Assembly (NCBI RefSeq): GCF_029962835.1
Contig: NC_080588.1
Span: forward strand, 18,246,001 to 18,310,000
Origin: Magnolia sinica
Lineage: Eukaryota > Streptophyta > Magnoliopsida > Magnoliales > Magnoliaceae
Direction: 5' to 3'
Length of the DNA stretch: 64,000 nt
Positions 14,912 through 45,667 of the stretch are shown here, one piece after another. The notes under the pieces are model-generated. The model saw nothing but the letters and a program-made list of their open reading frames with translations, searched no databases and was not told where the DNA came from. Numbering within the stretch: the first letter of the stretch is position 1; each line of letters opens with the position of its first letter. A program made the position numbers and the translations under genes.

Positions 14912-14923
14912 CACTACAAGAAA
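14912..14923 (+). repeat. CACTA left terminal inverted repeat
   Basis: CACTACAAGAAA, preceded by target duplication ATA. Confidence 0.95.
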
Positions 14924-14929
14924 GAGTGT

Positions 14930-15692: not shown

Positions 15693-15699
15693 AGCCTTT

Positions 15700-15905
15700 T
15701 TTTTATTATATACACCTGTTAGAATATAATTCATCATATTCTTCCTGATATACACCTGTTATATAATATATTTCATCATATTCACATTCACATCCATCTA
15801 AACCCAAACTATGTAAATTCATCCAACCATAAACTACATTCATCTAAACATAAACTGCATCCATCTAAACACAAACAATCTTATGGAAAAAAATAATTGA
15901 AAAGA
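15700..15905. repeat. Left half of extended inverted repeat
   Basis: It is the inverted counterpart of about 44,520-44,705 (for example 'gatatacacctgttat' here against 'ataggtgtatatcagg' there, and 'cacatccatctaa' against 'ttagatggatgtg'). The terminal inverted structure therefore extends almost 1 kb into the element. Confidence 0.7.
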
Positions 15906-15949
15906 GAGAGAACATATGAGAGGTGATCCAGACAAATGAAAAGAAATCA

Positions 15950-18900
15950 GGTTTAGGTTATAGGTTATAGGTTATAGCTTTAGGGAATTAAGAATAGGTT
16001 AAGGTTTAGGTTTAAGAAATCAGGTTCTAGTTCGGGTTTGGTATCGGGTTTAGGTTTGGGTTTTCAAATTTAGGTTTAAGTTTAGGTTAGGGAGTTGACA
16101 TTAAGATTAGGTGTAGATTTAGGTTTAAGTATTTGAGATTACATTTAGGTTTTAGGTTTAGGTTATATGTTTAGGTTTAAGTTAGGTTATAGGTTAAGGT
16201 TTAGGGAATTGAGAATAGGTTAAGGTTTATGTTTAAGTTAGGTTATAGGTTAAAGTTTAGGGAATTGAGAATAGGTTAAGGTTTAGGTTTACGAAATCGG
16301 GTTCGGGTTCGGGTTCGGGTTTAGGTTTGGGGTTTCAAGTTTAGGTTTAGGTTAAGGAGTTGAGATTAGGATTAGGTGTAGGTGTAGGTTTAGGAATTTG
16401 AGAATACATTTAGGTTATAGGTTTAGGTTTAGGTTATAAGTGTCGGTTATATGTTATAGCTTTAGGGATTTGAGAATAGGTTAAGGTCTAGGTTTAGGAA
16501 ATCGGGTTCGGGTTCAGGATCGGGTTTAGGTTTGGGTTTTCAAGTTTAGGTTTAGGTTTAGGTTAGGGAGTTGAGATTAGGATTAGGTATAGGTTTAGGT
16601 TTGGGGATTTAAGAATACATTTAGGTTTTAGGTTTAGGTTTGGGTTTAGGTTTAGGTTTAGGTTTTAGGTTTTAAGTTTAGGTTAAGGTTATAGGTTTAG
16701 GTTAGGTTTAGGATATAGGTTATAGGTTATAGGTTATAGCTTTAGGAAATTGAGAATAGGTTAAGGTTTAGGTTTAGTTTTAGGAAATCGGGTTTGGGAT
16801 TGGGTTTAGGTTTGGGTTTTCAAGTCTAGGTTTATGTTTAGGTTAGGGAGTTGATATTAGGATTAGGTGTAGGTTTAGGTTTAGGGATTTGAGAATACAT
16901 TTAGGTTTTAAGTTTAAGTTTTGGTTTAGGTTATAGGTTTAGGTTTTGGTTTTAGGTTTAGGTTAAGGTTATAAGTTTAGGTTATTGGGTTATAGGTTAT
17001 AGGTTAAGGTTTAGGTTAAGGTTATATGTTTTGGTTTAGGTTTAGGTTTAGGTTTAGGTTTAGGTTAAGGTTATAGGTTTAGGTTAAGTTTAGATTTAGG
17101 TTATAGGTTATAGGTTTTAGGTTTAGGGAATTGAGAATAGGTTAAGGTTTAGGTTTAGGAAATTGGGTTCGGGTTCGGGTTTAGGTTTGGGTTTTGAAGT
17201 TTATATTTAGGCTAAGGAGTTGAGATTAGGATTGGGTGTAGGTTTAGGTTTAACGATTTGAGAATACATTTAGGTTTTAGGTTTAGGTTTAGGTTTAGGT
17301 TTTAGTTTATAGGTTTAGGTTTAGGTTTAGGTTTTAAGTTTAGGTTAAGGTTAAGGTCAGGTTTTAGGTTATAAGTTTAGGTTATAGGTTTTGGTTATAG
17401 GTTATAGGTTATAGCTTTAGGGATTTGAGAATGCATTTAGGTTTAGGGATTTGAGAATACATTTAGGTTTTAGGTTGTAAGTGTAAGTTATAGGTTTAGG
17501 TTTAAGTTAGGTTATAGGTTAAGGTTTAGGGAATTGAGAATAGGTTAAGGTTTAGGTTTAGGGATTTGAGAATACATTTAGGTTTTAGGTTTAGGTTTAG
17601 GTTTTTTGGCTTAGGTTTAGGTATAGGTTATAGGTTATAGGTTATAGGTTATAGCTTTAGGGAATTGAGAATAGGTTAAGGTTTAGGTTTAGGTTTAGGT
17701 TATAGGTTTTGGTTTAGGTTTAAGTTTAAGTTTAAGTTTAGGTTATAGGTTATAGGTTTTGGTTTAGTTTAAGGTTATAGGTTTTGGTTTAGGTTTAAAT
17801 CTAGGTTTTAGGTTTAGGTTAAGGTTATAGGTTTAAGTTATAGGTTTTGGTTTAAGTTATAGGTTTTAGCTTAGGTTATAGGTTTAAGTCATAGGTTTAG
17901 GTTAGATTTAGGTTTAGGTTATAGGTTGTAGCTTTAGGGAATTGAGAATAAGTTAAGGTTTAGGTTTAGGACATCGGGTTGGGGTTCGGGATTGGGTTTA
18001 GGTTTGGGTTTTCAAGTTTAGGTTTAGGTTTAGGTTAGGGAGTTGAGATTAGGATTAGGTGTAGGTTTACGTTTAGGGATTTGAGAATACATTTAGGTTT
18101 TAGGTTTTGGTTTAGGTTTTAGTTTATAGGTTTAGGTTTAGGTTTTAGGTTTAGGTTTTAGGTTTTAAGTTTAGGTTAAGGTTATAAGTTTAGGTTAGGT
18201 TTAGGTTATAGGTTATAGCTTTAGGGAATTGAGAATAGGTTAAGGTTTAGTTTTAGTTTTAGGAAATTGGGTTCAGGATTGGGTTTAGGTTTGGATTTTC
18301 AAGTCTAGGTTTATGTTTAGGTTAGAGAGTTGAGATTAGGATTAGGTGTAGGTTTAGGTTTAGGGATTTGAGAATACATTTAGGTTTTAAGTTTAGGTTT
18401 TGGTTTAGGTTATAGGTTTAGGTTAAGGTTATAAGTTTAGGTTATTGGGTTATAGGTTATAGGTTAAGGTTTAGGTTAAGGTTATATGTTTTGGTTTAGG
18501 TTTAGGTTTAGGTTTAGGTTTAGGTTTTAGGTTTAGGTTATGGTTATAGGTTTAGGTTAAGTTTAGATTTAGGTTATAGGTTATGGGTTGTAGGTTTAGG
18601 GAATTGAGAGTAGGTTAAGGTTTAGGTTTAGGAAATTGGGTTTGGGTTCGGGTTTAGGTTTGGGTTTTGAAGTTTATATTTAGGCTAAGGAGTTGAGATT
18701 AGGATTGGGTGTAGGTTTAGGTTTAACGATTTGAGAATACATTTAGGTTTTAGGTTTAGGTTTAGGTTTAGGTTTTAGGTTTAGGTTAAGGTTAAGGTCA
18801 GGTTATAGGTTATAAGTTTAGGTTATAGGTTTAGGTTTAGGTTATAGGTTTAGGTTATAGGTTATAGGTTATAGGTTATAGCTTTAGGGATTTGAGAATA

Positions 18901-21900
18901 CATTTAGGTTTTAGGTTGTAAGTGTAAGTTATGGGTTTAGGTTTAAGTTAGGTTATAGGTTAAGGTTTAGGGAATTGAAAATAGGTTAAGGTTTAGGTTT
19001 AGGGATTTGAGAATACATTTAGGTTTTAGGTTTAGGTTTAGGTTTTAGGCTTAGGTTTAGGTATAGGTTATAGGTTATAGGTTTTAGGTTATAGCTTTAG
19101 GGAATTGAGAATAGGTTAAGGTTTAGGTTTAGGTTTAGGTTATAGGTTTTGGTTTAGGTTTAAGTTTAGGTTTAAGTTTAGGTTATAGGTTATAGGTTTG
19201 GTTTAGTTTAAGGTTATAGGTTTTGGTTTAGGTTTAAGTTTAGGTTTTAGGTTTAGGTTAAGGTTATAGGTTTAAGTTATAGGTTTTGGTTTAGGTTATA
19301 GGTTTTGGTTTAGGTTATAGGTTTAAGTCATAGGTTTAGGTTAGGTTTAGGTTTAGGTTATAGGTTGTAGCTTTAGGGAATTGAGAATAGGTTAAGGTTT
19401 AGGTTTAGGACATCGGGTTGGGGTTCGGGATCGGGTTTAGGTTTGGGTTTTCAAGTTTAGGTTTAGGTTTAGGTTTAGGTTAGGGAGTTGAGATTAGGAT
19501 TAGGTGTAGGTTTACGTTTAGGGATTTGAGAATACATTTAGGTTTTAGGTTTTGGTTTAGGTTTTAGTTTATAGGTTTAGGTTTAGGTTTTAGGTTTAGG
19601 TTTGAGGTTATAAGTTTAGGTTACAGGTTATAGGTTATAGGTTAAGGTTTAGGTTATAGGTTTTGGTTTAGGTTAAGGTTATAGGTTTTGCTTTAGGTTT
19701 AGGTTTAGGTTTTAAGTTTAAGTTAAGGTTATAGGTTTAAGTTTCGGTTATAGGTATAGGTATTGGGATTTGAGAATAGGTTTAGGTTAAGGTTATGAGT
19801 CTAGGTTTAGGTTATAGGTTATGGTTTAAGTTTAGGCTATAGGTATAAGTTTAGGTTATAGGTTAAGGTTTAGTTTTAGGAAATCGGGTTCGGGTTTAGG
19901 TTTGGGTTATAAGTATAGGTTATAGGTTATGAGAATAGGTTTAGTTAAGGTTATGAGTCTAGGTTTAGGTAATAGGTTTTGTTTTAGGTTTAGGCTATAG
20001 GTATAGGTTTAGGTTATAGGTTTAGGGAATGGTTTAGGAAACCGAGTTCGGGTTTGAGATTGGGTTTAGGTTTGGGTTATAGGTATAGGTTTTGGGATTT
20101 GAGAATAGGTTTAGGTTAAGGCTGTAAGTATAGGTTATAGGTTAAGGTTAAGGTTTAGGTTTCAGCTATAAGTATAGGTTTTAGGATTTGAGAATAGGTT
20201 TAGGTTAAGGTTATAAGTCTAGGTTTAGGTTATAGGTTAAGGTTTAGGTTTAGGTTATAGGTTAAGGTTTAGGTTTAGGTTATATGTATAGGTTTGGGTT
20301 ATAGGTTAAGGTTTAGGTTTAGGAAATCGGGTTCGGGTTCGGGATCGGCTTTAGGTTTGGGTTATAGGTATAGGTTTTGGTATTTGAGAATAGGTTTAGG
20401 TTAAGGTTATGAGTCTTGGTTTAGGTTATAGGTTAAGGTTGAGGTTTAGGCTATAGGTATAGGTTTAGGTTATAGGTATAGGTTTAGGTTTAGGAAACCA
20501 GGTTCGGGTTCGGGATCGAGTTTAAGTTTGGGTTATAGGTGTGGGTTTTGGGATTTGAGAATAGGTTTAGGTTAAGGTTGTAAGTATAGGTTATAGGTTA
20601 TAGGTTAAGGTTAAGGTTCAGGTTTCGGCTATATGTATAGGTTTAGGGATTTGAGAATAGGTTTAGGTTTAGGTTTAGATTAAGGTTATAAGTCTAGGTT
20701 TAGGTTATAGGTTAAGGTTTAGGTTTAGGTTATACGTTAAGGTTTAGGTTTTGGAAATCGGGTTAGGGTTCGGGATCGGGTTTAGGTTTGGGTTATAGGT
20801 ATAGGTTTTGGGATTTGAGAATAGGTTTAGGTTAAGGTTATGAGTCTAGGTTTAGGTTATAGGTTATGGTTTAGGTTTAGGCTATAGGTATAAGTTTAAG
20901 TTATAGGTTAAGGTTTAGTTTTAGGAAATCGGGTTCGGGTTCGGGATCGGGTTTAGGTTTGGGTTATAGGTATGGGTTTTGGGATTTGAGAATAGGTTTA
21001 GGTTAAGGTTGTTAGTATAGGATATAGGTTAAGCTTAAGGTTTAGGTTTCCGCTATAAGTATAGGTTTTGGGATTTGAGAATAGGTTTAGGTTAAGATTA
21101 TGAGTCTAGGTTTAGGTTATAAGTTAAGGTATACGTTTAGGCTATAGGTATAGGTTAAGGTTATAGGTTAAGGTTTAAGTTTAGGAAATCGGGTTCGATT
21201 TCGGGATCGGGTTTAGGTTTGGGTTATATGTATAGGTTTTGGGATTTGAGAATAGGTTTAGGTTAAGGTTGTAAGTATAGGTTATAGGTTAAGGTTAAGG
21301 TTTATGTTTCGGCTATAAGTATAGGTTTTGGGATTTAAGAATAGGTTTAGGTTAAGGCTATAAGTCTAGGTTTAGGTTATAGGTTAAGGTTTAGGTTTAG
21401 GTTATAGGTATAGGTTTAGGTTATAGGTTAGGGTTTAGGTTTAGGAAATCGGGTTAGGGTTCGGGATCAGGTTTACGTTTGGATTATAGGTATAGGTATT
21501 GGGATTTGAGAATAGGTTTAGGTTAAGGTTATGAATCTAGGTTAAGGTTATAGGTTAAGGTTTAGGTTTAGGCTATAGGTATAGGTTTTGGGATTTGAGA
21601 ATAGGTTTAGGTTAAGGTTATGAGTCTAGGTTTAGGTTTAGGCTATAGGTTTAGATTTAGGTTATAGGTATAGGTTTTGGAATTTGAGAATACATTTAGG
21701 TTTTAGGTTTAGGTTATAGGTAAAGGTTTTAGGTCATAGGTTTTGGTTTAGGTTAAGGTTATAGGTATAGGTTAAGGTTATAAGATATAGGTTTAGGGAA
21801 TTGAGAATAGGTTAAGGTTTAGGTTTAGGAAATCGGGTTCGGGTTTATGTTTGGGTTTTCAAGTTTAGGTATAGGTTTAGGTTAAAGAGTTAAGATTTGG

Positions 21901-22064
21901 ATTAGGTGTAGGTTTAGGTTTAGGGATTTGAGAATACATTTAGGTTTTAGGTTTAGGTTTAGGTTTTAAGTTTTAGGTTAAGGTTTAGGTTTAGGTTAAG
22001 GTTGAGGTTTAGGTTATAGGTTAAGGTTTTAGGTCATAGGTTTTGGTTTAGGTTAAGGGTATAG
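15950..22064 (+). repeat. Telomere-like TTTAGG array, left (6.1 kb)
   Basis: Continuous degenerate repeats of GGTTTA/GGTTATA/GGTTAA units on the G-rich strand. They are mostly 6-7 nt and mostly TTTAGG rather than the plant telomere unit TTTAGGG. Recurrent landmark sentences break the monotony: 'gaattgagaataggttaagg', 'gggatttgagaatacattt', 'aaatcgggttcgggttcggg' and 'gagttgagattaggattagg'. They show higher-order repetition of about 1.45 kb in the first half and about 430 bp in the second. There are no long ORFs. The array lies wholly inside the CACTA element. Confidence 0.9.
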
Positions 22065-22413
22065 TCCTTGCAAATACAGATATAAACACGGCCATCCGGT
22101 ACAAATGGCCAGGCCCTTCCAAGCTGTCCATAAAAAATGGACAGCTTCATCATGGTCATAATAGCGGTTCCCTCTTTCTAGGGAACCCCACTCTTCCGAA
22201 TAGCTCCTATGTACATCCGGGTCTGCTCCATTAATTTCGATCAAATACATAAACACGGCCTGTCCAAATGGCTAGGCCCCTCCAATGCTGTCCATAAGAA
22301 ATGGACAGCTTCATCATAGTTATAACAGCGGTTCCCACCTTCCAGGGACCCCCGCTCATCCGGATAGCTCCGACGCACATCCGAGTCTGCTCCATTAATT
22401 TTGAGCAAATACA
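22065..22413 (-). repeat. ~172-bp satellite, two inverted copies
   Basis: Two tandem copies (about 22,065-22,241 and 22,242-22,413, spacing 164-172 bp) that are the reverse complement of the units at 33,692-34,207. A further partial start ('gagcaaatacatagg') follows. The satellite sits exactly at the inner edge of the left telomere-like array. ORFs here are incidental. Confidence 0.85.
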
Positions 22414-23249
22414 TAGGCTTTCCTTACCTTCCATTGTATGCTTTCAAGGTGCAGATGGCCATTGAAACACACATACATCTTGGGAATCGCTTCTCAAATC
22501 CGCAGACTGTTTTGTTTTGAAACTCGTTCATCTCACCTGAAAACCTGTCACATAATGAATAACTATAACCACAATGATAACTATTATGAATGCACTATAA
22601 TGAACAAATTATTATTATTATTATAGATAACTGTAATTACAACATGGATGTTGGAGTCACTTATGATGGGTAGAATGGCATATAAAGATTATGATCGACC
22701 TTAGAAATATAAATGCCATTATAGATAACTGTAATTACAACATGGATGCTGTGTGTGTCTATTTCATATGCACCTCAACATATATGTCTGCGTGCATGTG
22801 CAGGTGTGTGTGTCCATATATTTTATTAGAGAAGGGAAGGGATTATTTAAATCATTAATAAAAGAAATATATGAATATTAAAAGATGTTGACTTCTTCAT
22901 AAAATGCTCAGGCCTATAAAGAAATGGAACCAATGTCCACACCACCTGATTGATTTGCATATAAAACAACCATATTACAACGAACTATTTCAATCTCAAT
23001 CCAAACCATCCATGGTGGGATGTGGATGATCACATATTTAATAGCGACCCGCGTGGCTTTGAAGTGGATTGAATCAGACCTCTCTAAACACAAAGGCCTT
23101 GACATGGTGGGATTTGACTGGGTCATGTGTGGCTCCCTTAAGTAGTGGCACAAAACCATATTTGGAAGTGGTTGGTGAAATACCTATTTGACACACTTCT
23201 GAACCCCAAACACTAATTTGTTGCCACGTGGGGGATTGCCAAGAAATAC

Positions 23250-23600
23250 ACCATGTTTATCGGAAGCAGATTGCATGCTGAGGTTCACCATGATTTATGT
23301 ATTTTATCCACTATGTCTAGCCATTTCAATAGATAATTTTAGGGCTTGAGCTCAAAAATGAAGCATATCAAACGCTCAAATGGACTACACCATAGGAAAA
23401 AGTGTGAATTGAACATCTACTATAGAGAATTTCTTAAGGGCCATAGAAGTTTTGGATCAAGCTTATTTTGATGTGTCCCCTTTGCCCATGCCCGTATGAT
23501 CTTATGAATAGGTTGCATGACAAATAAACATCACCAGGGAGCCTAGCAAGGTTTCAACAATGGAAAACCCATTAATTAATTACCATGTTACTAGAAAAAA
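23250..23600. repeat. Dispersed family A copy
   Basis: It contains family landmarks in order: 'tgtattttatccactatg', 'gggcttgagctcaaaaatga', 'ggactacaccatagg', 'ccgtatgatcttatgaatag' and 'ggtttcaacaatgg'. Other copies are at 11.0-11.5, 11.6-12.1, 24.3-24.6, 28.9-29.2 and 61.0-61.2 kb. Confidence 0.6.
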
Positions 23601-23639
23601 ATTTTCAAGCTCAGGTGCATGTGGATGATCAATTTCAAT

Positions 23640-23960
23640 CCAAACCATCCATTAGATTCCTTCTTTTTGAAGTGGGCCACATATAATGGATGGGCTGGAT
23701 TTGTGAACCACATCTTGTTGAGCCCAACAAATGATCATGAATATTTTAATGGAGGGTAACCCCTCTCAACTTTTGTACGTGGTGTGGCCCAAAAAAGCCA
23801 CAGATTGACTTGATTTTTAAGCCCCAGGCCCAAAATAGAATGGTGCATTTGACTGATTAGGTAGATGTTCGACACCCATCACGGCAACACAATAGTAGGT
23901 GTTACCCTTGTCGTGGGCCCACCTTGATGATGTGTTATATATCCACTCTGCCCAACCATT
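23640..23960. repeat. Dispersed family B copy 1
   Basis: It shares 'taatggagggtaacccctct', 'caacttttgtacgtggtgtg' and 'gactgattaggtagatg' with copies at 30.3-30.6, 30.8-31.0 and 32.6-32.9 kb. It is non-coding. No termini were defined. Confidence 0.6.
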
Positions 23961-24279
23961 TTGCCATCGGGATCTTAGACCCACCATGTTTGTGTTGCCG
24001 AGTTTTTCACTGAAGAAGTTTATTCTTAATGTTTAAATTGAGTTATTTGTCCATATTATAGATATTTTGAATTTGTAAGCCCACTTTTATAGCCCACTTG
24101 ATGATTGGTTTAGCTTAATAAATATCTCAAATATTCATCTTGATGGGCTTAACAAAATAACATAAATTGAGTTATTACTCCATACCTGTAAGTAACTTTC
24201 ACTTGTAAGTGACTTACGGGTAAGTCACTTACAACTTAAAAGAACTTACAGGCATCTAAATAGGCCCACCAATATTTAT

Positions 24280-24640
24280 ATACCTCTCATTTTTGGAATA
24301 AATCCCTTATTTCATGTATTTTTTACTTTTGGACTGGTTGGATTTCAAATAGACATTGCGATGGGCCTTAAGATAGTTTCAACGGTGGTAATCACTCTGC
24401 CCGCTGTTTTCTGTGGTGGGGTCCACTATATAGTTTTTATCTGCCTCATTCTTTGGCACATGACTTAAAATGATATCTCAAAATGGATGGACGGTGTGGA
24501 TATAACAAATACATTGTAGTGTTTCCACACCATAGGAAACAATGGACCACACCATAGGAAACAATGGACTTGAACTTATACCATTGAAAATTTCTTAGGG
24601 CCACACCAAGTTTTAGATCGAACTTACTCATGTCCTAAAA
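24280..24640. repeat. Dispersed family A copy
   Basis: Landmarks 'gtttcaacggtggtaatcac', 'tggggtccactata' and 'tggatggacggtgtgga', with two short direct repeats of 'caccataggaaacaatgga'. Confidence 0.5.
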
Positions 24641-25522
24641 TACTATAATGCTATAGTGAAATAGGTGAATTGCATGAATAAGTCACATATATCAAGGTGG
24701 ATCTTAAGAATTTAAGTAAACTTTTTTGGAATTGATTTTTGAGGGAATATTCTCAACAAACAGGTGTTAGAAATCATAATTGGTTATTTGCTATAAAAAA
24801 TAAGGTAATTCAAAAAATCAAACACACCTAGAAAAATAAATAAATAAATAAATAATTTTGAATTGTGAGTAGTAAAACCAAAAGCATTTGAATTTGTAAA
24901 CGTTAAACAGGCCCATCCCATCCATTCACTTAGATATTATGATCTAAGCCATTGATCATATATGGTGGGTCATCCTGCTTGTGAATCAGAGGGGTGATTC
25001 TAATAAATTTCCACTCTACTAGTTGATTAGATGGGCAAATAGAAGTAGACTTGCAACATTCATCTGTAAAATGTGAACAACAAAACCAAACGATGCATTT
25101 TACAGGTGTTTACAGCAACATAAAATATTTTTCCACTAGTGTAATGACTTAGGGTGTGATGCATTAGACTTGTGTGGAGCAAGCCCTAGACATTATCCTT
25201 TCTTTTGTGATTATCCATGACTCTAGATCTGACACATAAAACTTCAGGTTCCAGTGATTTCCTTCTTTCAACTCTAGTTGCATCGGCCTACTTGGCTCGA
25301 CTCCCATTCAACTCTTTTTATACAAGAACAAAGCTGAATGGTGATTTCAAACTGGTTTGCCGGATAGAAAAAATACATCAGGCGAACTGTCCATTGTACA
25401 TGGTCCTTCAATTTTGGAGCTTTCCAAACACAAACTAATTATTGCAACTCAGTTCAGTAGTGCATCCAAAAGCAGCCTGAAACTTTTATGTTCAAATAGA
25501 GATTTATCAATGAGAATATAAC

Positions 25523-25625
25523 TCACAGCTCTAGGTGCCTCCTTCACTACAAGTTTCCCCTTGTGCCGGTCTATCTCTTCTGTGCAAGCTTTAATTGCAT
25601 CATTTAGAACTGATATGCCTTGTTC
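25523..25625 (-). pseudogene. Captured exon of translation initiation factor eIF2-alpha
   Basis: Minus strand. After an acceptor-like '...ttttggcag' the exon reads EQGISVLNDAIKACTEEID, then RHKGKLVVKEAPRAVS. It ends near a possible donor ('gtgagtta'). In plants, this segment lies in the C-terminal half of the eIF2 alpha subunit, the GTP-dependent Met-tRNA carrier that is regulated by phosphorylation. Only this one ~103-nt exon is recognisable. Upstream and downstream codons in the same frame look intronic. The open frame is intact within the exon and the splice sites look genuine, so it was taken as genomic DNA rather than as a retrocopy. This is gene capture by the CACTA element. The identification is from family knowledge, not from a search. 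Confidence 0.75.
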
Positions 25626-27256
25626 CTGCCAAAATGGAAAAAAAAAATTAAAAATTAAAAAAATGGCAAATTTTGAAGAACAATGGACATCGGGAAATAA
25701 TAAAACTGATCCACAACCAAAATATAGCATTTTTCTTTTATTGGCAACATACAAAAAAGGAATCCCCATCCATCAGCTAAAACATTGGTGATTGTGTTGG
25801 CCACTTGTATGAATACCGATAGGTTGCTTCTTTAGAATACGCGAGATATCTAGAGAATAATGAAGAATTACAATGGATGACAACAAAGGAATCCAATAAT
25901 ATGATAGACACTACAGATAAGCATTGCAACTCCGCCTACTAGTGACACTCTAGCTGGTCCCAAGCCCAGGCAAAGGAGAGTTGATGTTAGGTGGACAGCC
26001 AGTGGTAAAACCTTTGCAAAGCAAATCATGAGAAACCGACCTCGAATAGCTGGGACAAGGTTATGATAAGGATGATGACGATGATGGCACCATAGATAAG
26101 TAAATGGTTAGAAGGTTTTATGTTCAAAGGAATATATTTCTAAATGGAAAACAGATGCAGGAAAGGAAACACAATCCATTAAGATCATGAATAAATGAAT
26201 CCGGTAATCAAAAAAGGTCTAAGTTCCATCCCTTAGCTAACACATCAACGAGCATGTTGCCCTCTTATAGAGAACATCTGAGGGGCTAGTTCTCCAAAGC
26301 ATACAAGATTGTAGAGATCATAGAAGAATTACATAATAAAATATTAGAGGAATCCAAATGGTATGATAGACATTAGTTAAGCATTGTAATTCCACATGGT
26401 AGCAACAGGCCAACCATTCCCAAGGTAGGGTAAAGTGGGGTTGATGCCAGATTGGCAGCAAATAATCAAACTCGGTCAAACAAATCAAGGTAATCCAACA
26501 AACCTTGATTTTATGGAGAATTTGTAGAGATTCTCGTATTTTTCTATTACGGTCCTCTCTATTTGGCTAACATAATTAGGAAGAAGAAATTCAAACTCTC
26601 TGTTTGTAATTAGAGAACTGGGTATACCCAATTAGGACTACAACTTGGGTTTGAGACAACCTGAGTTTGGGTCATTTTGGCTGAGGTTGTCAAGGTCCTT
26701 GAGTTGGTTCGGTTTGAAAACAATAATCCAATTTGAATTCAGGTTGTGTTTGGTTGAGCAAATGCAGGTTGAGTAAGGTCAAGTTCGGAATAATCCATGG
26801 AACTTGGGGCATTCAAACATTGGAAATCTCAAGTTCCAAGGAATTCAACAGAGGATTCAACACATCCCAACAATGAGTAAGTGAAGAAAAAATAGCCAAA
26901 TTCCCCATTGATGGTCCTTGACCGGATACAGAAGATGGCCAAACAACAACACCAACATTTTTGCATAAAACACATGCATGGAAAATCTTTGAGTGAATCC
27001 AAACTGCACAACTTGAGACCAAAGTTGCTCTTTCAAATTTGGAAGGTGAAATCCCTAATTCTAAAAATTCTCAGATTCCCAAAATCCTAAAACCCCCAAA
27101 TGCCCAATTTATAAAATCAGAAAAACTCAAATTCAGGGTTCAAATTCAAATCTGTAAGCCCTAAAATCTGCAAATCCCTAAATGAGGGTACACATTCGAA
27201 TTGCAAATCCACAAATTTCCAAATCCCCAAATTCATAAATTAACATTGAGATTGAG

Positions 27257-27267
27257 AGAGATTGAGA

Positions 27268-27312
<45 letters not shown>

Positions 27313-27370
27313 CACGTTCGTGGGTAGGGCTGGCGGCAATGGTGGGGTGGAGAGAGAAAGAGAGAGAGGA

Positions 27371-27422
<52 letters not shown>
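27257..27422. repeat. Two (GA)n microsatellite runs
   Basis: Pure or near-pure GA runs at about 27,270-27,310 and 27,352-27,422, separated by 'ctcacgttcgtgggtagggc'. The Arg/Glu and Leu/Ser ORFs over them are artefacts of the repeat. Confidence 0.9.
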
Positions 27423-27425
<3 letters not shown>

Positions 27426-28302
27426 GGAGAGATGAACTCATTAAGGAGCAAGAACATACCTCTTGCAAGCTCAAGAAGAGAGATTCAATCAATCAAAAAT
27501 CTAAAAATTGCAATTTCATAGCCGTATGTATGCGGAAAGGGGGAAATCTGATTTTCTCCTTCATTTCAACTCCAATGCTCTTGAAAAAAAACAACAAATG
27601 GACCCTCTTGCAAGCTCTAATGATCGGCCGAAATCTCCCCTTCAATGTCCTTGTGGATTGAGAGAATCAAAGAAGTGGAGGAGAGCTTACATCGCATGCT
27701 AGGGTTCAAAAAAGGGGTTTTCGAAAACCCCTTTTCAAGACTCTTTTCTTTTAACATGAGTTTTCTAGTTTGTTTATGGTGTGAGTTCAACACCAACTTT
27801 AACAAAGAAACACCACCATTTTAAGTTAAAATCAATAAAGAAATATTCAGTGTCAACTTTACATTTTAAGGTTTTTAAAAATATGAGTTTTCAACCATTT
27901 AACATAAAGTTTTTTTCTGTCATTTACTACTACCATTGGATTTTCTGTTTTAGATTTGTTTTCTTCATGAAATACATGCGACAACAATTTATCTCCCTGC
28001 CATTCTCAAGGTTCCATTTTGGATCGGTTTCCATCTTGTAACTTAAACATTAGTATTGCAGTATTTACATCTGTCACCATCATTACCATAACCTTAGTAA
28101 CATGAATCTTCTAAGGTGCTCGGTCTATTTGGTATTCTGCTTCTATATCTTGCGATCTATCTCCCACACTGCATATCATGTGTCTGCTTCAAATCCACCT
28201 TTGTTTTCGTAAAGTGCAGTTATTGTTGGATGTTAAGTGTTTTATTAATCAAATTCTTGAAGATATATCAAATTAAAATTTTTTTTTTTTTAAAAAAATT
28301 TT

Positions 28303-28342
28303 AAAAAGAAGAAGAAGAAGAAGAAGAAGAAAGAAAGAAAGA
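28303..28342. repeat. (GAA)n-rich microsatellite
   Basis: A GAA trinucleotide run next to a poly-T/poly-A stretch at 28,277-28,305. Confidence 0.85.
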
Positions 28343-28849
28343 TAAGAAAATCAATTCCATCTTAAAAGGCTCCCCTTTCCATCTCAACCAAAATAGTAGA
28401 TATAAGGGCTGACCTCTACCATACCGGTGGCTCAGTAAGAACTGTCTTTGTGCTGCTTTTCGGACACTGGATATTTTATCAGGCCAATTCCTAGAGATCT
28501 ATCTAATTGGCATCTACACAAGAAAAGAAAATTAAAAGAATTCAAATTACAGGGCTCCCATTTTGATAGGAATAATGGGCATACTTGGCCCAATCAAGAT
28601 GGTTGATATTGGGTTCTCTCTTCCATACATGTAGCTCATGTGTATGTCTGACAATATCATTGTGTTGGTTCCATAATGATTAGTTCTTACTTCTTAGCTA
28701 AACATTACATTGATTTATGATCCAAACTGTCTGAACAAGGGGCTCTAAATGGATGATTAAAAAGTATGGGCAAAATTACACATTCAATATGTGTAAGTCC
28801 ATCAATCAGTCTACTAGGATCATTTGATCATATCATTTTTCAGGTTATG

Positions 28850-29240
28850 ACCCATCCAAGGTGGGATCCAACTCTTGGACTGTCCGGGTTCATGTACACA
28901 TGTATGAATGTAGGGGAGATGGCATGGGTATCAACTGTCATACTCATGCTGAGCTTGTTGAATTTCCTATCAATATTGTTGCATGAACCTAAAAATGAAT
29001 AAATCTAATTCTTAGGTGGACCACACAAATGAGATTGACTGCCTACTGTTGAATACTTCTTAGGCCCACAACAGTTTAGATCAAGCTGATATTTGTTTTT
29101 TTTTATTTTTATTTTTATTTTTCCCTCCATCCGAGTCTATATGACTTTATAAACAAGTTGGATGACAAATAAACATTATGGTGGGTCCTAAGAAAGTTTC
29201 AACAGTATAGTGTGGTCTACTTGAGTGTTGGATCTACCTC
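28850..29240. repeat. Dispersed family A copy
   Basis: Landmarks 'taggtggaccacacaaatga', 'cttaggcccacaacag', 'gagtctatatgactttataa' and 'aagtttcaacagta'. It is non-coding. Confidence 0.5.
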
Positions 29241-30058
29241 ATTTTTTTATTTATAATCTAAAATTATATGACAAAATGTTGATGGGTTGCTTCCTACCAC
29301 TATGACTTTTGTACTTGCTCCATTTAAAGTCCTATAAGACTATCTCCTATAGTGCTTGCCTGGTAACTTGCTCCATCTAAAGTACTATACGACTATCTCA
29401 TATCGCTCCTCAATTGTTGTGGGACAATGATTTGGATGGTGTGAACTTATATACATGTATGGCATGTGTAATGGATGGTTGCCACACCATATGAAAACCG
29501 TAACCTTGGATATCCATCATTAATAATTCATAGATACTTTCAAAATCTTATCCATTTAATGGCCCACAGTCTTATCAAAGACGAGCGGATTCCGTTAGGT
29601 ATTTGTGAGTTCTGACTGTGATTGTGGGGCCCACCTTGATGTATGTTCATGTTGTCTATACGTTTTGCTAGCTTATTTTAAGTGTATGAGCTTAAAAATA
29701 AAGCAAATTCAAATCTTAAGTAGACCATACCATATGAAACTCTGTAAGGCCCACAAAGCACGTGCTATTCACTCTGATCATGAGGTCCTCATGTTCATCA
29801 CCCCTGAAAACTAGTATGACCCAAAATTCAGGTCCCGATGAGGGCCACCTGATGAACAGCTTGGATGTGGTATTCTTGATGGACACTGGTGCAGCACAAA
29901 AACATGGTGGACCATGGAGCTTTGATGTACGATGTGAATTGTTAAGGATTCAAAAACTGGTTATGTTGGTTATGTGTGGCAACTACGAATGATTCCATTT
30001 TCATTCAGGGATTCATTTTCTGCTATACCTCGTTGTTGATTCTTTTTCTCTCCTGCAG

Positions 30059-30127
30059 GGGTTGGGTACAAGTACAGCTAATAATTTGATGTGTTGGGAA
30101 CTTCTACGGAAGTTACAAAACAAATTG
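30059..30127 (+). pseudogene. Exon-like captured fragment, unrecognised
   Basis: A 69-nt stretch bounded by a strong acceptor ('ttctctcctgcag') and donor ('gtaaga'). It is open in one frame as 23 codons ending in [13 protein letters not shown]. The polypyrimidine tract is convincing. I do not recognise the protein. An overlapping 66-codon ORF from 30,091 in another frame runs through the donor and is less likely to be the biological frame. Confidence 0.4.
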
Positions 30128-30284
30128 GTAAGACGATGTATAAACTAACTGCAAAAGTTGATGAGTATGCTCGTGGAATGATCAGTGGGTTTGGTTCAAC
30201 CCTGTTTGAGGAGCTCATGGGAACTCCCCATGACGTTGAGCTGTGTTGGCCCCACCATGATGTGTGTCAAACATCAACACCGTG

Positions 30285-30570
30285 CATTTGATGGGTCCCT
30301 TTAAATTATGGGATATCCCAAAAATCAATCGTGCACTTAGTAAGGCCCCAACTAAAATTTGGATGCGTCTGAAACTTGGTATGACCCCTCATCCAAGGGG
30401 CACACACATAATGGATGCACTGGATTTGTGAACCTAAACCAATATGGGCCCAAAAAATAATTATGAATGTCTTAATGGAGGGTAACCCCTCTCAACTTTT
30501 GTATGTGGTGTGGCGCGCCATCGGATGGTGCATCCGATTGATGGGGTAGATGTTTTACACGCATCACGAT
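30285..30570. repeat. Dispersed family B copy 2
   Basis: It shares 'gatgggtccctttaaatta', 'tatgacccctcatcc' and 'ggagggtaacccctctcaac' with the copy at 32,590-32,900. Confidence 0.6.
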
Positions 30571-30599
30571 GAGGCCCACAGAGCCATACCAGATGTCAA

Positions 30600-30990
30600 C
30601 TGAATTTAGGGCATGAGCCAAAAAATGAGCTAGATTTAAAGTTCAAGTGGACCACACCACAGAATCGAACAGCCGCCGTTAAAAACTTCTTGGGCCACTG
30701 TTTACTTTGGTGTGGGCCACTTCAACGTTCAATCTGCCTCATTTTTTGGCTCATGCCTCAAAATTCCATGGTAAAGTAGATGGCCGACACGGATATGTCT
30801 TATACATCATGGTGGGCCCACAAATAATTATAAATGTTTTAATGGAGGGTAACCCCTCTCAACTTTTGTATGTGGTGTGGCCCACACAAGTGATAGATTG
30901 ATTTAATTTTTAATCCCTAGGCCCACCATGGGATGGTGCATCTGACTGATGGGGTAGATGTTTGACATGCATCATGGTGGGGCCCACAGA
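30600..30990. repeat. Dispersed families A and B, adjacent copies
   Basis: A family-A piece ('gggcatgagccaaaaaatga', 'caagtggaccacaccac') runs into a family-B piece ('ggagggtaacccctctcaac', 'gactgatggggtagatg'). Confidence 0.5.
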
Positions 30991-30999
30991 GCCATACCA

Positions 31000-31099
31000 C
31001 ACCCACATAAAAAATCGGGCGCGCCCGCTTAAAATTGGGCGCCCAAAAAAATCCCCAAAATTAGGCGCTCTCTCACCCAAACCCCTCTCCCCTCTCTCT

Positions 31100-31148
<49 letters not shown>

Positions 31149-31260
31149 GCGGCTGCCTTCGGCTCTCTCCAGCCGCAGCAACGAGATAACCCATCAGGTA
31201 TCTCGATCTCTACGCTTTGCGAGTTATTATCATTATTTTTTTTACTGGTTATGGTGGGGA
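31000..31260 (+). promoter_or_regulatory. CT-rich leader-like segment with possible first intron donor
   Basis: A GC-richer stretch with a (CT)n run at about 31,100-31,146, then 'gcggctgccttcggctc' and 'aacccatcag|gtatctcg', which resembles a 5' UTR followed by an intron donor. CT-rich leaders upstream of a long first intron are common in plant housekeeping genes. Pyrimidine-rich, intron-like DNA continues to about 32,190, where an acceptor and exon-like stretch occur. I infer a captured 5' gene end. There is no TATA box that I trust. Confidence 0.35.
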
Positions 31261-32190
31261 TTTACTAGATTTATAGCATAGCTTTTTACGCATTTTTTTT
31301 GGTTGGGTTGCATACATGCTTTAGCTTTTGAATTTCTCACGGTTTCACCCCCAAAATCTGATACAACAACCCAAATTTTCTGATTTTTGAGCAAATATCC
31401 TCCTTGGATTTCATTTCTCCACTCCTCCAGATTTCATTTCCGAGCAGAAAATATACGCAGTTCTCTCCATCTCTGTCTTGCTTTCTAGGGTTTCCGAGGT
31501 TTTTCTTCTAGGGCTTTATGAGATTTTCTCCATCAGATAATTTCCCTATCTAATTTCATACTTTTTTTCTTCAAATTTCAATTTATAGATTGAATTCCTC
31601 TATTTTTCTAAATTTTTGTAGATCTTTTTTTGAGCAGATTTATACACGTTTTCTCCATCTATGTGTTTTGTCTCTACGGTTCGAAAATTGAATTCACAGA
31701 TTCTTGAGGTTTCTTAGGTTTTCAATTAGAGAGATATACAGCGTTTTCTCGGTGGATATCCCTTCTCTTTCACTTCGAGCTTGAATTTACAGACTGATAC
31801 AGTTTTTATTTTAATATATCGTTTCTTTGTATTTGCCTGTTCAAGCTCGAAATCAGAGGTTTTTGTTTTTTTTATTTTTTATTTTGTATTTGCCTGTTCA
31901 AGCTCGAATTGGGTTTTGGTTTTCTTAGTGAGCTTAGTTGAAACTAGATTTTCGCTTAGTTGGGATTGTGGTTGCTTTGAATTGGAATTGGGATTGGAGT
32001 TTCATGCCCCTCACAATGTAATTAACGGCCTATGCCAGACCACTGCCCGAAATGTATTTGTTTCCTTGATCAATAAATGCCCCTTAACAGGGCATATTAG
32101 GGTTAATTTAATGGAGTCAATAAACCTTATAAAAAATTAGACATTCTTGTAAGCAAGATGTTTATTGTTCATTCACTTCTATTTATTAGG

Positions 32191-32273
32191 TGACCAGTAA
32201 GAAGGCAGCTCTCATAGACTCCTTCAGTCAGATGAAGGATAAGGTTGGACATCAGTGCATCCATTTCTCGAGG
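32191..32273 (+). pseudogene. Exon-like captured fragment after the CT-rich leader
   Basis: It is bounded by an acceptor ('tctatttattag') and donor ('gtaatt'). It is open in one frame, including KKAALIDSFSQMKDKVG and ending HFSR. It could be the second exon of a gene whose leader is at 31.1 kb. I cannot name the family. Codon use and the open frame look protein-coding, and the flanks look intronic. Confidence 0.4.
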
Positions 32274-32589
32274 TAATTACCTCTCTAGATTGTAGTCCTT
32301 TTAAGAATTTTTTTTTATATATATGTGGACCAGTTGATCAACAAGTAGATTAGGAACTACTTCCTGTAGAGGCGCACCATGCATGTGCCTTATCCTAAAA
32401 AATGAGGCCGGCCCAATCATCTTTAAATGTAGACATGCCATGTTGTTTCGTTTCATGCTGTCCATTTGTTGGATCATGTTTCTAGCCACTTGATAAATGC
32501 ACTATCTAGAATTTTTGCCTAAGCCAACTTGTGACTATTTCAGATCTGTTCATTGCTGATTTTTAGCACCTCAAGACACTGATTTTTAG

Positions 32590-32900
32590 CATTTGATGGG
32601 TCCCCTTTAAATTATGGGATAATCCAAAAATCAGCTGTATACGGAACTCTGGTGGGCCATACCATCTAAAATCATGTGAAGACACACCTAAAACATATAA
32701 AAGCACTTGGTGGGCCCCACCTGAAATTTGGATGCGTCTTAAACTTGGTATGACCCCTCATCCCAGTGGCACACACATAATGGATGGGCTGGATTTGTGG
32801 ACCACATCTCTGTGGGCCCAAAAAATAATTTGGAATCTTTTGATGGAGGGTAACCCCTCTCAACTTTTGTATGTGGTGTGGCCCACACAAGTCATAGCCC
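32590..32900. repeat. Dispersed family B copy 4
   Basis: The most complete copy: 'gatgggtcccctttaaatta', 'cttggtatgacccctcatcc', 'gatgggctggatttgtgg' and 'ggagggtaacccctctcaac', in that order. Confidence 0.6.
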
Positions 32901-33113
32901 ACCATGATTTTGGATTTATAGTTATGTCAATTTTGTCAAAGTTTTATACATTGTTCCCCTCCTTTTTCTGGAAATTTACAGTAAATAAGTTGTGGCCCAC
33001 ACAGTGTTTATGATGCTTAAATAAATCGACCTGGATGTGTGGTAATGATGTTAAGATCAGCCCCCTAGAACATTTGCTTATGATGCTTAAATCAATCCAC
33101 TTGATCATTTTAT

Positions 33114-33263
33114 GAATGATGCTTGACTTAGTTCACTTGAACATGTGTGAATGATGCTCAACTTGGTTCACTTGAAAATGTGCGAATGATGCTTGACTTG
33201 GTTCACTTGAACACGTGTGAATAATGCTCGACTTGGTTCACTTGAGCATGGGTGTATGATGCC
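33114..33263. repeat. 35-bp minisatellite, four copies
   Basis: Units begin at 33,114, 33,149, 33,184 and 33,219, each like 'gaatgatgcttgacttggtt' plus 'cacttgaacatgtgt', followed by a partial fifth. Less regular relatives lie upstream from about 33,009. Confidence 0.85.
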
Positions 33264-33691
33264 TATGTTGTAATTTATAGATTTGTAAGTTAGATAATTA
33301 GTTACTCGTTTGAGGATTTTTATGGGGCCATACATAGATATGGTGTGTTTTTGGTGGCATAGAAATTGCTCAAATTGTCCCATTTTGGACAGTTCAATGT
33401 TAGATGGATAGTATGCTTTCATATAATCTATTTAAATGTTCATGCCTGATCCGCGGTTCATCTCCTCACTTCTCTCTAGATATGTTTCTTCCGTTCTATA
33501 TCCAATGTCAAATATCTTTACGTTGTTTTAGATATTTGGCATCGGAATGTAATGTAAGATCAACTTATCTGGAGAGGCATCGGGAGATGCTGCCGGATTT
33601 TCGACGTGGACGTTTAAGTGGGAATATGAAAGTATTACAATCTATCCAACCTTGGATGAGTAACTAATTTAGGATTTAATTGTATTATCTC

Positions 33692-34207
33692 GAAATTGAT
33701 GGAGTAGACCCGGATGTGCGTCGGAGCTATCCGGATGTTAAGCGGGGGTCCCCGAAAGATGGGAACCGCTGTTATGACCATGATGAAGCTGTCCATTTCC
33801 TATGGACAGCATTGGAGGGGCCTGACAAATTGGAGACGGCCGTGTTTATATCTGTATTTGCTTGAAATTAATGGAGTAGACCCGGATGTGCGTCGGAGCT
33901 ATCCGAATCTTGAGCGGGGGTCCCTGGAAGATGGGAACCGCTGTTATGACTATGATGAAGCTGTCCATTTCCTATGGACAGCATTGGAAGGGCCTGACAA
34001 ATTGGAGACGGCCGTGTTTATATCTGTATTTGCTTGAAATTAATGGAGTAGACCCGGATGTGCGTCGGAGCTATTCGGATCTTGAGCGGGGGTCCCTAGA
34101 AGATGGGAACCGCTGTTATGACTATGATGAAGCTGTACATTTCCTATGGACAGCATTGGAAGGGCCTGACAAATTGGAGACAGCCGTGTTTATATCTGTT
34201 TTTGCAG
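33692..34207 (+). repeat. 172-bp satellite, three tandem copies
   Basis: Units begin at 33,692, 33,864 and 34,036, exactly 172 bp apart, each starting 'gaaattaatggagtagaccc' or a close variant. The last unit runs directly into the right telomere-like array. They are the inverted counterpart of 22,065-22,413. The long ORFs in two frames exist only because the copies are nearly identical; I assign no protein. Confidence 0.92.
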
Positions 34208-37200
34208 GGACCACAACCTAAACCTATTCTCAAATCCCTAAACCTAAACCTAAACCTTAACATTTTCTCAAATCCCTAAACCTAAACCTACACCTAATCC
34301 TAATCTCAGCTCTCTAGCCTAAACCTAAACCTAAACTTGAAAACCCAAACCTAAACCCAGACCCGAACCCGAACCCGATTTCCTAAACCTAAACCTTAAC
34401 TTATTCTCAATTCCCTAAAGCTATAACCTAACCTAAACCTATACTTATAACCTAAACCTATTCTCAAATCCCAAAACCTATAACTATAACCTAAACCTTA
34501 ACCAAAAACCTATAACCTAACCTAAGCTAAACCTATAAACTTCCCCTAAACCTAAACCTATAACCTTAACTTAAACCTAAACCTATAACCTAAACCTATT
34601 CTCAAATCTCTATCCCTAAACCTAAACTTATAACTTAAACCTATCCTCAAATCCCAAAACCTATAACTATAACCTAAACCTAAACCTATAACCTATAACC
34701 TAATCTAAACCTAAACCTATAAACTTAACCTAAACCTAAACCTAAACCTATAACCGTAACCTTAACATATAACCTTAACCTAAACCTAAACTTATAACCT
34801 AAACCTATTCTCAAATCCCTAAACATAAACCTAAACCTATAACCTATACTTATTCTCAAATCCCAAAACCTAAATCTAAACCTTAATGTATTCTCAAATA
34901 CCTAAACCTAAACCTACACTTAATCCTAATCTCAACTCCCTAGTATAAACCTAAACCCGGTCCCGAACCCGAACCCGATTTCCTAAACTTAAACCTTGAC
35001 CTATTCTCATTTCTCTAAAGCTATAACCTATAACCTAACCTAAACCTATAACTATAACTCAAACCTATTCTCAAATCCCTAAACCTAAACCTACACCTAT
35101 AACCTAAACCTATAACCTATAACCTAACCTAAACCTAAACCTATAAACTTAACCTAAACCTAAACCTATAACCTTAACCTTAACATATAACCTTAACCTA
35201 AACCTATAACTATAACCCAAACCTATTCTCAAATCCCTAAACCTAAACCTATAACCTATACCTATTCTCAAATTCCTAAACCTAAACCTAAACCTTAATG
35301 TATTCTCAAATGCCTAAACCTAAACCTACACCTAATCCTAATCTCAACTCCCTAGCCTAAACCTAAGCCTAAACTTGAAAACCCAAACCTAAACCCGGTC
35401 CCGAACCCAACCTTGACCTATTCTCAATTCCCTAAAGCTATAACCTATAACCTAACCTAAACCTATAACTATAACCCAAACCTATTCTCAAATCCCTAAA
35501 CCCAAACCTAAACCTATAACCTATACCTATTCTCAAATCCCTAAACCTAAACCTACACCTAATCCTAATCTCAACTCCCTAACCTAAACTTAAACCTAAA
35601 CTTGAAAACCCAAACCTAAACCCAGTCCCGAACCCGAACCCGATTTCCTAAACCGAAACCTTGACCTATTCTCAATGCCCTAAAGCGATAACCTATAACC
35701 TAACCTAAACTTATACTTATAACCTAAACCTATTCTATCCTAGAACCTATAACTATAACCTAAACCTTAACCAAAAACCTATAACATAACCTAAACCTAA
35801 ACCTATAAACTTAACCTAAACCTAAACCTATAACCGTAACCTTAACATATAACCTTAACCTAAACCTAAACTTATAACCCAAACCTATTCTCAAATCCCT
35901 AAACATAAACCTAAACCTATAACCTATACCTATTCTCAAATCCCAAAACCTATAACCTAAACCTTAATGTATTCTTAAATGCCTAAACCTAAACCTACAC
36001 CTAATCCTAATCTCAACTCCCTAGCCTAAACCTAAACCTAAACTTGAAAACCCAAACCTAAACCCGGTCCCAAACCCGAACCCGATTTCCTAAACCTAAA
36101 CCTTGACCTATTCTCATTTCCCTAAAGCTATAACCTATAACCTAACCTAAACCTATAATTATAACCTAAACCTAAACCTATAACCTTAAGCCTAACATAT
36201 AACCTTAACCTAAACCTAAACCTATAACCTAAACCTATTCTCAAATCCCTAAACCTAAACCTAAACCTAAACCTATAACCTAAACCTAAACCTAAACATA
36301 TAACCTATAACCTAACCTAAACCTAAACCTATAAACTTAACCTAAACCTAAACCTATAACCTTAACCTTAACATATAACCTTAACCTAAACCTATAACTA
36401 TAACCCAAACTTATTCTCAAATCCTTAAACCTAAACCTAAACTTATAACCTATGACTATTCTCAAATCCCAAAACCTATAACCTAAACCTTAATGTATTC
36501 TCAAATGCCTAAACCTAAACATACACCTAATCCTAATCTCAACTCCCTAGTATAAACCTAAACCTAAACATGAAAATCCAAACCTAAACCCGGTCCCAAA
36601 CCCGAACTCGATTTTCTAAACTTAAACCTTGACCTATTCTCATTTCCCTAAAGCTATAACCTATAACCTAACCTAAACCTATAACTATAACCCAAACCTA
36701 TTCTCAAATCCCTAAACCTAAACCTAAACTTATAACCTATACCTATTCTCAAATCCCCAAACCTAAACCTACACCTATAACCTAAACCTATTCTCAAATC
36801 CCAAAATCTATAGCTATAACCTAAACCTAAACCTATAACCTATAACCTAACCTAAACCTAAACCTATAACCTATAACCTAACCTAAACTTAAACCTATAA
36901 ACTTAACCTAAACCTAAACCTATAAACTTAACTTAAACCTAAACCTATAACCTTAACCTTAACATATAACCTTAACCTAAACCTATAACTATAACCCAAA
37001 CTTATTCTCAAATCCTTAAACCTAAACCTAAACTTATAACCTATACCTATTCTCAAATCTCAAAACCTATAACCTAAACCTTAATGTATTCTCAAATGCC
37101 TAAACCTAAACCTACACCTAATCCTAATCTCAACTCCCTAGTATAAACCTAAACCTAAACATGAAAACCCAAACCTAAACCCGGTCCCGAACCCGAACCC

Positions 37201-38218
37201 GATTTCCTAAACTTAAACCTTGACCTATTCTCATTTCCCTAAAGCTATAACCTATAACCTAACCTAAACCTATAACTATAACCCAAACCTATTCTTAAAT
37301 CCCTAAACCTAAATCTACACCTATAACCTAAACCTATTCTCAAATCCCTAAACCTAAACCTACACCTATAACCTAAACCTATTCTCAAATCCCAAAATCT
37401 ATAACTATAACCTAAACCTAAACCTATAACCTATAACCTAACCTAAACCTAAACCTATAAACTTAACCTAAACCTAAACCTATAACCTTAACCTTAACAT
37501 ATAACCTTAACCTAAACCTATGACTATAACCCAAACCTATTCTCAAATCCCTAAACCTAAACCTAAACCTATAACCTATACCTATTCTCAAATTCCTAAA
37601 CCTAAACCTAAACCTTAATGTATTCTCAAATGCTTAAACCTAAACCTAAACCTTAATGTATTCTCAAATGCCTATACCTAAACCTACACCTAATCCTAAT
37701 CTCAACTCCCTAGCCTAAACCTAAACCTAAACTTGAAAACCCAAACCTAAACCCAGTCTCGAACCCGAACCCGATTTCCTAAACCTAAACCTATAACTAT
37801 AACCAATTCCCTAAAGCTATAACCTATAACCTAACCTAAACCTATACTTATAACCTAAACATATTCTCAAATCCCAAAACCTATAACTATAACCTAAACC
37901 TATACCTATAACCTTAACCTAAACCTAAACCTATAACCTAAACCTATTCTCAAATCCCTAAACGTAAACCTAAACCTATAACCTAAACCTATTCTCAAAT
38001 CCCTAAACCTAAACCTAAACCTTAATGTATTCTCAAATACTAAACCTAAACCTAAACCTATAACCTATAACCTATAATCTATAACCTAAACTCAAATCCC
38101 TAAACCTAAACCTACACCTAATCCTAATCTCAACTCCAATTCCCTAAACTTAGACCTAAACTTATACCTAGTCTCTATTCCCTAAACCTAAACATATAAC
38201 CTAAACCTATAACCTAGC
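34208..38218 (-). repeat. Telomere-like CCTAAA array, right (4.0 kb)
   Basis: The same repeat language as 15,950-22,064 but in inverse orientation: CCTAAA/TATAACC/CCTTAA units with landmarks 'cctattctcaaatccc', 'cccgaacccgatttcc', 'ctaatcctaatctcaactcc' and 'ccctaaagctataacc'. Landmark spacing suggests higher-order units of about 530-590 bp. The transposase gene begins only ~66 bp after its end. Confidence 0.9.
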
Positions 38219-38284
38219 CCAATCTTAAAGCTATTTTCGTAAACTGATTTTAGTCATTTCATTGTAGACACGGATAAGAGTTGG

Positions 38285-44705: not shown

Positions 44706-44740
44706 TGCGGAATTTCAAGAGGTATATTTAAAAAAAAAAA

Positions 44741-45664: not shown

Positions 45665-45667
45665 GTA

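Follow-up and report, generated by a model that had tools for sequence, protein, structure and literature searches.

Telomere-like tandem arrays as a recurrent internal part of CACTA transposons in Magnolia sinica

A CACTA element in the 64,000-nucleotide stretch of Magnolia sinica DNA analysed here (the window) carries two telomere-like tandem arrays, one behind its left subterminal repeats and the other directly before its TNP2 transposase gene, and similar arrays lie in corresponding positions at many other loci of the genome. The arrays are probably an old module that was inherited within a CACTA clade, spread by transposition, and is most likely a passenger. The position of the right array directly before TNP2 and the presence of the same array in at least two other CACTA families go beyond an earlier note on this DNA, which had been made from its letters alone.

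Structure of the CACTA element in the window

The element has CACTA terminal inverted repeats at 14,912 and 45,679, a 3-bp duplication (TSD, ATA/ATA), short direct and inverted subterminal repeats, and a TNP2-type transposase with four Pfam domains, which are the characteristics of CACTA (En/Spm) transposons. The end sequence CACTACAAGAAA gave 2 matches, compared with 0.55 expected by chance. The parts are as follows.

14,912-45,679, plus strand: whole CACTA element, 30,768 bp, with CACTACAAGAAA at either end and TSD ATA/ATA
14,912-15,948, plus strand: left terminal and subterminal repeats (TTTTAGCGACGAAAA type), then a tail (TATACACCTGTTATATAATATATTTC...)
15,949-22,064, plus strand: left telomere-like array, G-rich strand on plus (TRF)
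22,065-22,415, minus strand: array/unit junction with two 164-172-bp units (units at 22,102-22,415)
22,416-33,680, no strand: inner region of gene-like and dispersed-repeat DNA, 94-98% to a subset of relatives
33,004-33,670, plus strand: piece adjoining the 172-bp units, present in many other family copies
33,681-34,207, plus strand: three 172-bp units, opposite in orientation to those on the left
34,208-38,218, minus strand: right telomere-like array, G-rich strand on minus
38,219-38,284, plus strand: conserved leader from the array to the TNP2 frame, with CTRAY and TGTAG motifs
38,285-41,990, plus strand: TNP2 transposase gene in several open pieces (PF13963, PF02992, PF13960, PF13952)
42,181-44,482, plus strand: more open pieces, possibly a second CACTA gene
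44,590-45,679, plus strand: right tail and subterminal repeats

The TNP2 frame of this copy is broken, and a Pfam scan of one of the open pieces downstream (43,954-44,319) yielded no match. As in foldback transposons, the element has inverted arms, with an array and 172-bp units on both sides. However, these arms are not the ends of the element: 1,037 bp separate the left end from the start of the left arm, and the right arm sits upstream of TNP2. On its outer side, the right array is bordered by the TNP2 gene and by no terminal region. Outside the element, reverse transcriptase pieces (PF00078) were observed on the minus strand at 52,663-53,540, of which 52,663-53,067 scored over the Pfam cutoff and 53,100-53,540 under it.

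The 172-bp unit occurs in 7,017 copies genome-wide (searched with a 26-base stretch, at most 3 mismatches; control 0). When six frames were examined, one frame of each unit at 33,681-34,205 proved to stay open for about 50 codons, even though the unit length is not a multiple of three. The inner DNA at 25,400-27,750 and 31,000-33,670 is gene-like and recurs at 94-98% in a subset of family-A elements (families are defined below); inner pieces with such relatives are partly found elsewhere in the genome as well. No Pfam match was obtained for two inner open frames, and no clear single host gene emerged as the source of the inner region among the first-look candidates scored (40 of 6,768 and 40 of 1,783).

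Composition and relationship of the two arrays

TRF placed the arrays at 15,949-22,064 and 34,215-38,216, and the right array was judged by eye to start at about 34,208. Both arrays are strand-pure: TTTAGG was counted 302 times in the left array and 193 times in the reverse-complemented right array, with 0 on the reverse strand of each. These counts are about 5-fold over those in dinucleotide shuffles (means of 64.5 and 38.8, respectively). The commonest AGG-to-AGG spacing was 6 nt (275 in the left and 191 in the right array), followed by 7 nt (117 and 50), and the C content of the G-rich strand was 2.4% and 2.3%, respectively. The doubled telomeric heptamer TTTAGGGTTTAGGG was searched for in both window arrays and found 0 times; together with the spacing of mainly 6 nt, its absence distinguishes them from the tandem TTTAGGG of plant telomeric repeats. 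Two-quartet G-rich patterns were more frequent in the arrays than in shuffles (122 vs 44 and 66 vs 28) because the repeat contains GG. True TTTAGGG 21-mers are separate from the TTTAGG landmark arrays; 1,196 of them (166 + 1,030) were counted genome-wide, some by contig ends and others interstitial (e.g. C2:44.76 Mb).

The earlier note had described two inverted TTTAGG-type arrays of 6.1 and 4.0 kb within CACTA ends, composed mainly of 6-mers with landmark sentences of their own. TRF, the CACTACAAGAAA ends and the TSD agree with the first part of this description, and the spacing counts and the copies of the landmark TTTAGGAAATCGGGTTCGGGTT agree with the second. Its picture of a mirror image holds as far as the inversion is concerned and extends to the 172-bp units at the inner edge of each array, but the left and right arrays align in inverse orientation at only about 75%, in many registers. 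The arrays are thus inverted without recent common copying. The distance between left and right landmark units in the window was 0.176, similar to that between families (0.15-0.17), which indicates that both window arrays are old. A recent inverted duplication of one array was ruled out by this distance and by the alignment of about 75%.

The note had also proposed binding of telomere proteins. According to this explanation, the arrays would be a platform for TRB/TRF-like proteins, and their general likeness to telomeric repeats speaks for it. TRB proteins require the telobox, however, and teloboxes were depleted: TAGGGTTT occurred 1, 0, and 0 times in the left, right, and family-B arrays, against shuffle means of 11.3, 6.6, and 10.8, and TTAGGGTT occurred 3, 0, and 0 times, against 13.7, 6.3, and 10.5, respectively. 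A genuine TTTAGGG tract of the same genome (L001) contained 18 teloboxes per 3 kb, and TTTAGGGTTTAGGG is missing from the window arrays as described above. Binding of the TRB/telobox type is therefore unsupported, and we regard a role as a protein platform as very improbable.

Array upstream of the transposase gene

The right array of the window ends 67 bp upstream of the first TNP2 frame at 38,285. Among the 20 TNP2 copies next in identity to that of the window (the next best from 36 of 998 candidates scored), all 20 had a C-rich array ending just before the TNP2 start. A second sample, composed against selection bias of 15 exact starts without a listed exact junction and 5 variant starts, had the array before the start in 19 of 20 copies, giving 39 of 40 sampled copies overall. 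In the exception (L110, C4:42518126-42518857), the array was gone and a 172-bp unit stood in its place. Genome-wide, the array/TNP2 junction was found 286 times (control 1) and the TNP2 start 369 times (control 0), each with at most 3 mismatches; the 83 additional starts may represent diverged junctions, as in most of the second sample, or real losses.

Upstream of TNP2, an acceptor-like TGTAG site was present in 39 of 40 copies; for the CTRAY motif, the figure was 37 of 40. Both are raw counts over related copies. These motifs suggest the 3' end of a putative TNP2 leader intron. The length of the right arm (array and units) ranged from 2.6 to 13.2 kb, with a median of 4.5 kb, in 25 elements whose two edges were paired by hand from listings.

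Left ends of three CACTA families

Arrays with the landmark sentences were found behind the left ends of at least three CACTA families, which differ in their subterminal repeats: TTTTAGCGACGAAAA in family A, CACTACCAAAAA and GGCTACGGAT in family B, and CACTACGCCAAAA and GGACGGTC in family C. Exact end patterns were counted 359, 397, and 406 times, respectively (controls 0). BLAST of the subterminal regions, with one example per family, gave 0 cross-family hits at E 1e-3. The tail between the subterminal repeats and the array was 88-93% identical between families A and C. An array also stands behind a CACTATAAGAAA end with GGCTACGG-like repeats that are weakly similar to those of family B (L079, C1:11546774-11549773); judging from these repeats, this may be a fourth CACTA family that carries the array. 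Pairs of CACTA ends that face each other, each being of the left (GAGGGT) type, were observed at C3:76995507-77031028 and C4:66259888-66301963; they may be chimeric elements or two neighbours.

For family A, the first 20 GAGGGT-type ends listed were inspected; 12 had an array and 8 had none within 4 kb. One end (L060) carried 1 subterminal motif only and was excluded as a genuine A end, hence 12 of 19 genuine ends had the array and 7 of 19 lacked it over their first 4 kb. A different inner stretch is common to five of the ends without an array. One left end without an array in its first 4 kb (L078) lies 19.4 kb from a TNP2 copy (L053) that keeps its right array. The family-B left junction was found in 499 copies (control 0), and 20 of the 45 exact B junctions on C1 and C2 had an exact B end 726-938 bp outside. 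One family-B element, on C4, was read whole; it is 12,303 bp long with TSD ATT/ATT and contains a single array, about 5.8 kb in length, with a 172-bp unit after it. No TNP2 was detected in this element by tblastn, for which a positive control was run. About 270 bp of its inner part matched the inner region of the window at 88% (the 273-bp piece 27,011-27,283). The array on the TNP2 side is thus the constant part, and the mirror pair is common and not universal.

These observations bear on a functional RNA or intron module, in which transcripts of the G-rich left and C-rich right arrays would pair, looping out the cargo and joining splice sites, or would form dsRNA for silencing. The right array is nearly invariant before TNP2, and a soybean CACTA element has a 14.6-kb gene with a large, alternatively spliced precursor transcript (PMC2613891). 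Sense copies of the two arrays can pair (mean duplex energy of -127.9 kcal/mol for 12 random 150-nt pairs, compared with -60.7 for base-composition shuffles), but such pairing is expected of any inverted repeat. Moreover, the left array is missing from the first 4 kb of 7 of the 19 genuine A ends, including L078 with its TNP2 copy, and the whole-read family-B element has one array only. The same observations weaken the paired-arm role suggested in the earlier note, and we consider the RNA module unlikely.

Genome-wide distribution of the arrays

The 22-base landmark TTTAGGAAATCGGGTTCGGGTT had 14,580 exact copies in the 1.84-Gb genome (reversed control 0), and long tandem arrays were present at many loci, as in satellite DNA. 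By linear scaling, there may be roughly 3,000 array loci, on the order of 1% of the genome. The landmark undercounts the arrays, as a 5.8-kb family-B array had no exact copy.

The first 100 landmark matches formed 23 clusters in 22.6 Mb of contig C1; these are the first part of an ordered list, a non-random sample from one end of one chromosome. A CACTA link was found in 21 of the 23 clusters, by flanking sequence in 17, by position in 2, and by the 172-bp unit only in 2. Family-A flanks were present in 3 clusters, family-B or B-like flanks were recognized by sequence in 8, including two weak B-like cases with a short match and a CACTA-like end (11542193 and 13872004), and family-C flanks were present in 5. 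The latter had 7-16 C motifs each, and 4 of the 5 had a C end within 1 mismatch. A further cluster, 9051291, has a C flank in common at 95%, which completes the 17. Cluster 11321268 is linked by its position between a pair of B ends, and 22641376 by a C end 7.6 kb outside as well as a 172-bp unit. Clusters 8409683 and 22490607 are linked solely through the 172-bp unit. For clusters 5964179 and 18508270, no CACTA sign was found in the flanking sequence examined. At C1:18508690-18511689 (L085), an array adjoins gene-like coding sequence, with no CACTA sign within 3 kb. An exact 172-bp unit was listed within 12 kb of 10 of the 23 clusters; its strand was opposite to that of the landmark in 10 of 10, and the unit lay inward of the cluster in 7 cases and inside the cluster limits in the other 3.

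The exact family-A end pattern had one match in the stretch with the 23 clusters, which had pointed to arrays outside CACTA elements. This reading was dropped because the A pattern is too strict and the flanks showed that other families carry arrays. The earlier claims that the arrays belong to the interior of a CACTA element and were spread by it are borne out by the ends and TSD in the window, by the recurrent junctions, and by the links in 21 of 23 clusters, so that the arrays do not lie mainly outside CACTA ends. Interstitial telomeric repeats are common in plants, and the two arrays might accordingly be telomere relics that arrived in separate events, one per side, as when telomerase takes part in repairing a break. 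The junctions recur at 286 and 499 places, however, which argues against independent insertion; in addition, the repeats are hexamers instead of TTTAGGG, and the landmark sentences are common to many loci. We consider such an origin extremely improbable.

Divergence of the arrays

Arrays and their flanks diverge alike at aligned positions in copies close to that of the window, and the arrays are gap-rich. Identity to C1:4806848 was 97.2% in the array (4,713 aligned positions) and 94.6% in the flank. Right-array comparisons with 20 copies gave array identities of 92-97% and flank identities of 91-97% in 19 of them; the outlier (L058) gave 86% and 91%, respectively. For ten left ends, the values were 85-96% and 83-94%.

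Distances between landmark units were 0.227 (A-B), 0.221 (A-C), and 0.211 (B-C) between families and about as large within families (0.221, 0.207, and 0.195). The landmark units of A-left, B, C, and orphan loci intermix, and those of the TNP2 side form a more distant set (0.25-0.29). Of the left units of the window, 3 of 4 were closest to family-A left units.

That the distances between families are about as small as those within them would be expected if the array and tail were a tract of shared homology through which CACTA families swap ends, the body thereby gaining new subterminal repeats. Families A and C, with similar tails and arrays and no detectable subterminal similarity, fit this explanation. 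Nevertheless, fast divergence of subterminal motifs in an unbroken lineage gives the same picture, and the closeness of the window left units to A left units is what plain descent predicts. The swap is hypothetical and seems to us improbable.

Discussion

We favour, as the probable explanation, a module of a large-CACTA clade that consists of the telomere-like array and the 172-bp units. One copy lies just behind the left subterminal repeats, and a second, inverted copy directly before TNP2, probably inside a putative 5' leader intron. The modules would be inherited along with the element, and every transposition would take them to a new site, while slippage or unequal exchange between repeats would change the array length. 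Smaller elements without TNP2 would have kept the left module with other DNA behind it. The array may be tolerated because its location allows a spliced or untranslated stretch to be long. In our view it is most likely a passenger and not a working part; in this scheme, we infer the leader intron, the slippage and the absence of function.

The near-fixation of the array upstream of TNP2 and its strand purity are striking, and a pure passenger would not need to be as constant as this array, which is present in 39 of 40 TNP2 copies and across families whose ends are unrelated. The array could instead be a selected working part of the transposase transcription unit, namely a strand-pure leader intron that sets the processing or silencing of TNP2 RNA and has been carried across families with replaced ends, the left array being an optional partner. 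We regard this as rather unlikely, although slightly less so than the RNA module or the exchange of ends. As the array is nearly fixed and the ends differ, RNA data offer a direct test of whether it is a passenger or a working part.

Telomere-like DNA at interstitial sites is usually interpreted as a scar left when chromosomes fused or a break was repaired. In this genome, one transposon module would explain thousands of such sites, and telomere-probe signals and counts of interstitial repeats in such genomes can mirror CACTA anatomy. The elements also provide a rare case of a multi-kilobase tandem array that is nearly fixed beside a transposase gene, with ends wholly different between families.

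The arrays resemble plant interstitial telomeric repeats in having a telomere-like motif away from chromosome ends, and differ from them in not being TTTAGGG, in their landmark sentences, and in their fixed position in a transposon. Searches of the open-licence literature, outside which most subscription journals lie, showed no CACTA elements with a telomere-like array as a constant part, and searches of it for tandem or telomeric repeats of Magnolia showed nothing describing these arrays. Tandem repeats inside transposons are listed in a review (PMC9659126). The soybean CACTA element Tgmt* has family-specific subterminal repeats, a large precursor transcript, and alternative splicing (PMC2613891), and shares with the window element the CACTA ends, a 3-bp ATA duplication, structured subterminal repeats that differ between families, TNP2, and a length of more than 20 kb; unlike Tgmt* as described there, the window element has a kilobase tandem array. 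In the foldback transposon Tetris of Drosophila virilis, the inverted arms hold tandem repeats that supply satellite-like arrays (PMC4079207). Tandem repeats in inverted arms of a DNA transposon are common to both, but the Tetris repeats, according to that account, are about 220 bp long and form part of the terminal inverted repeats, in an element that appears to be non-autonomous. The arrays of the window, by contrast, are set back about 1 kb from CACTA ends and adjoin a TNP2 gene. Another counterpart is Jozin, a CACTA transposon of Chenopodium quinoa that captured satellite DNA and has a 5,550-bp tandem array within its ends (PMC8978399); in both cases, the array lies inside CACTA ends in several elements of one genome. 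Jozin, as reported from C. quinoa elements, has a 171-bp monomer and one array close to its 3' end, whereas degenerate telomere-like hexamers are found here, inverted on two sides, directly before TNP2, and in at least three CACTA families. A satellite within a CACTA transposon has thus already been published with Jozin, and what appears to be new is that a telomere-like array keeps a fixed place next to TNP2 across families.
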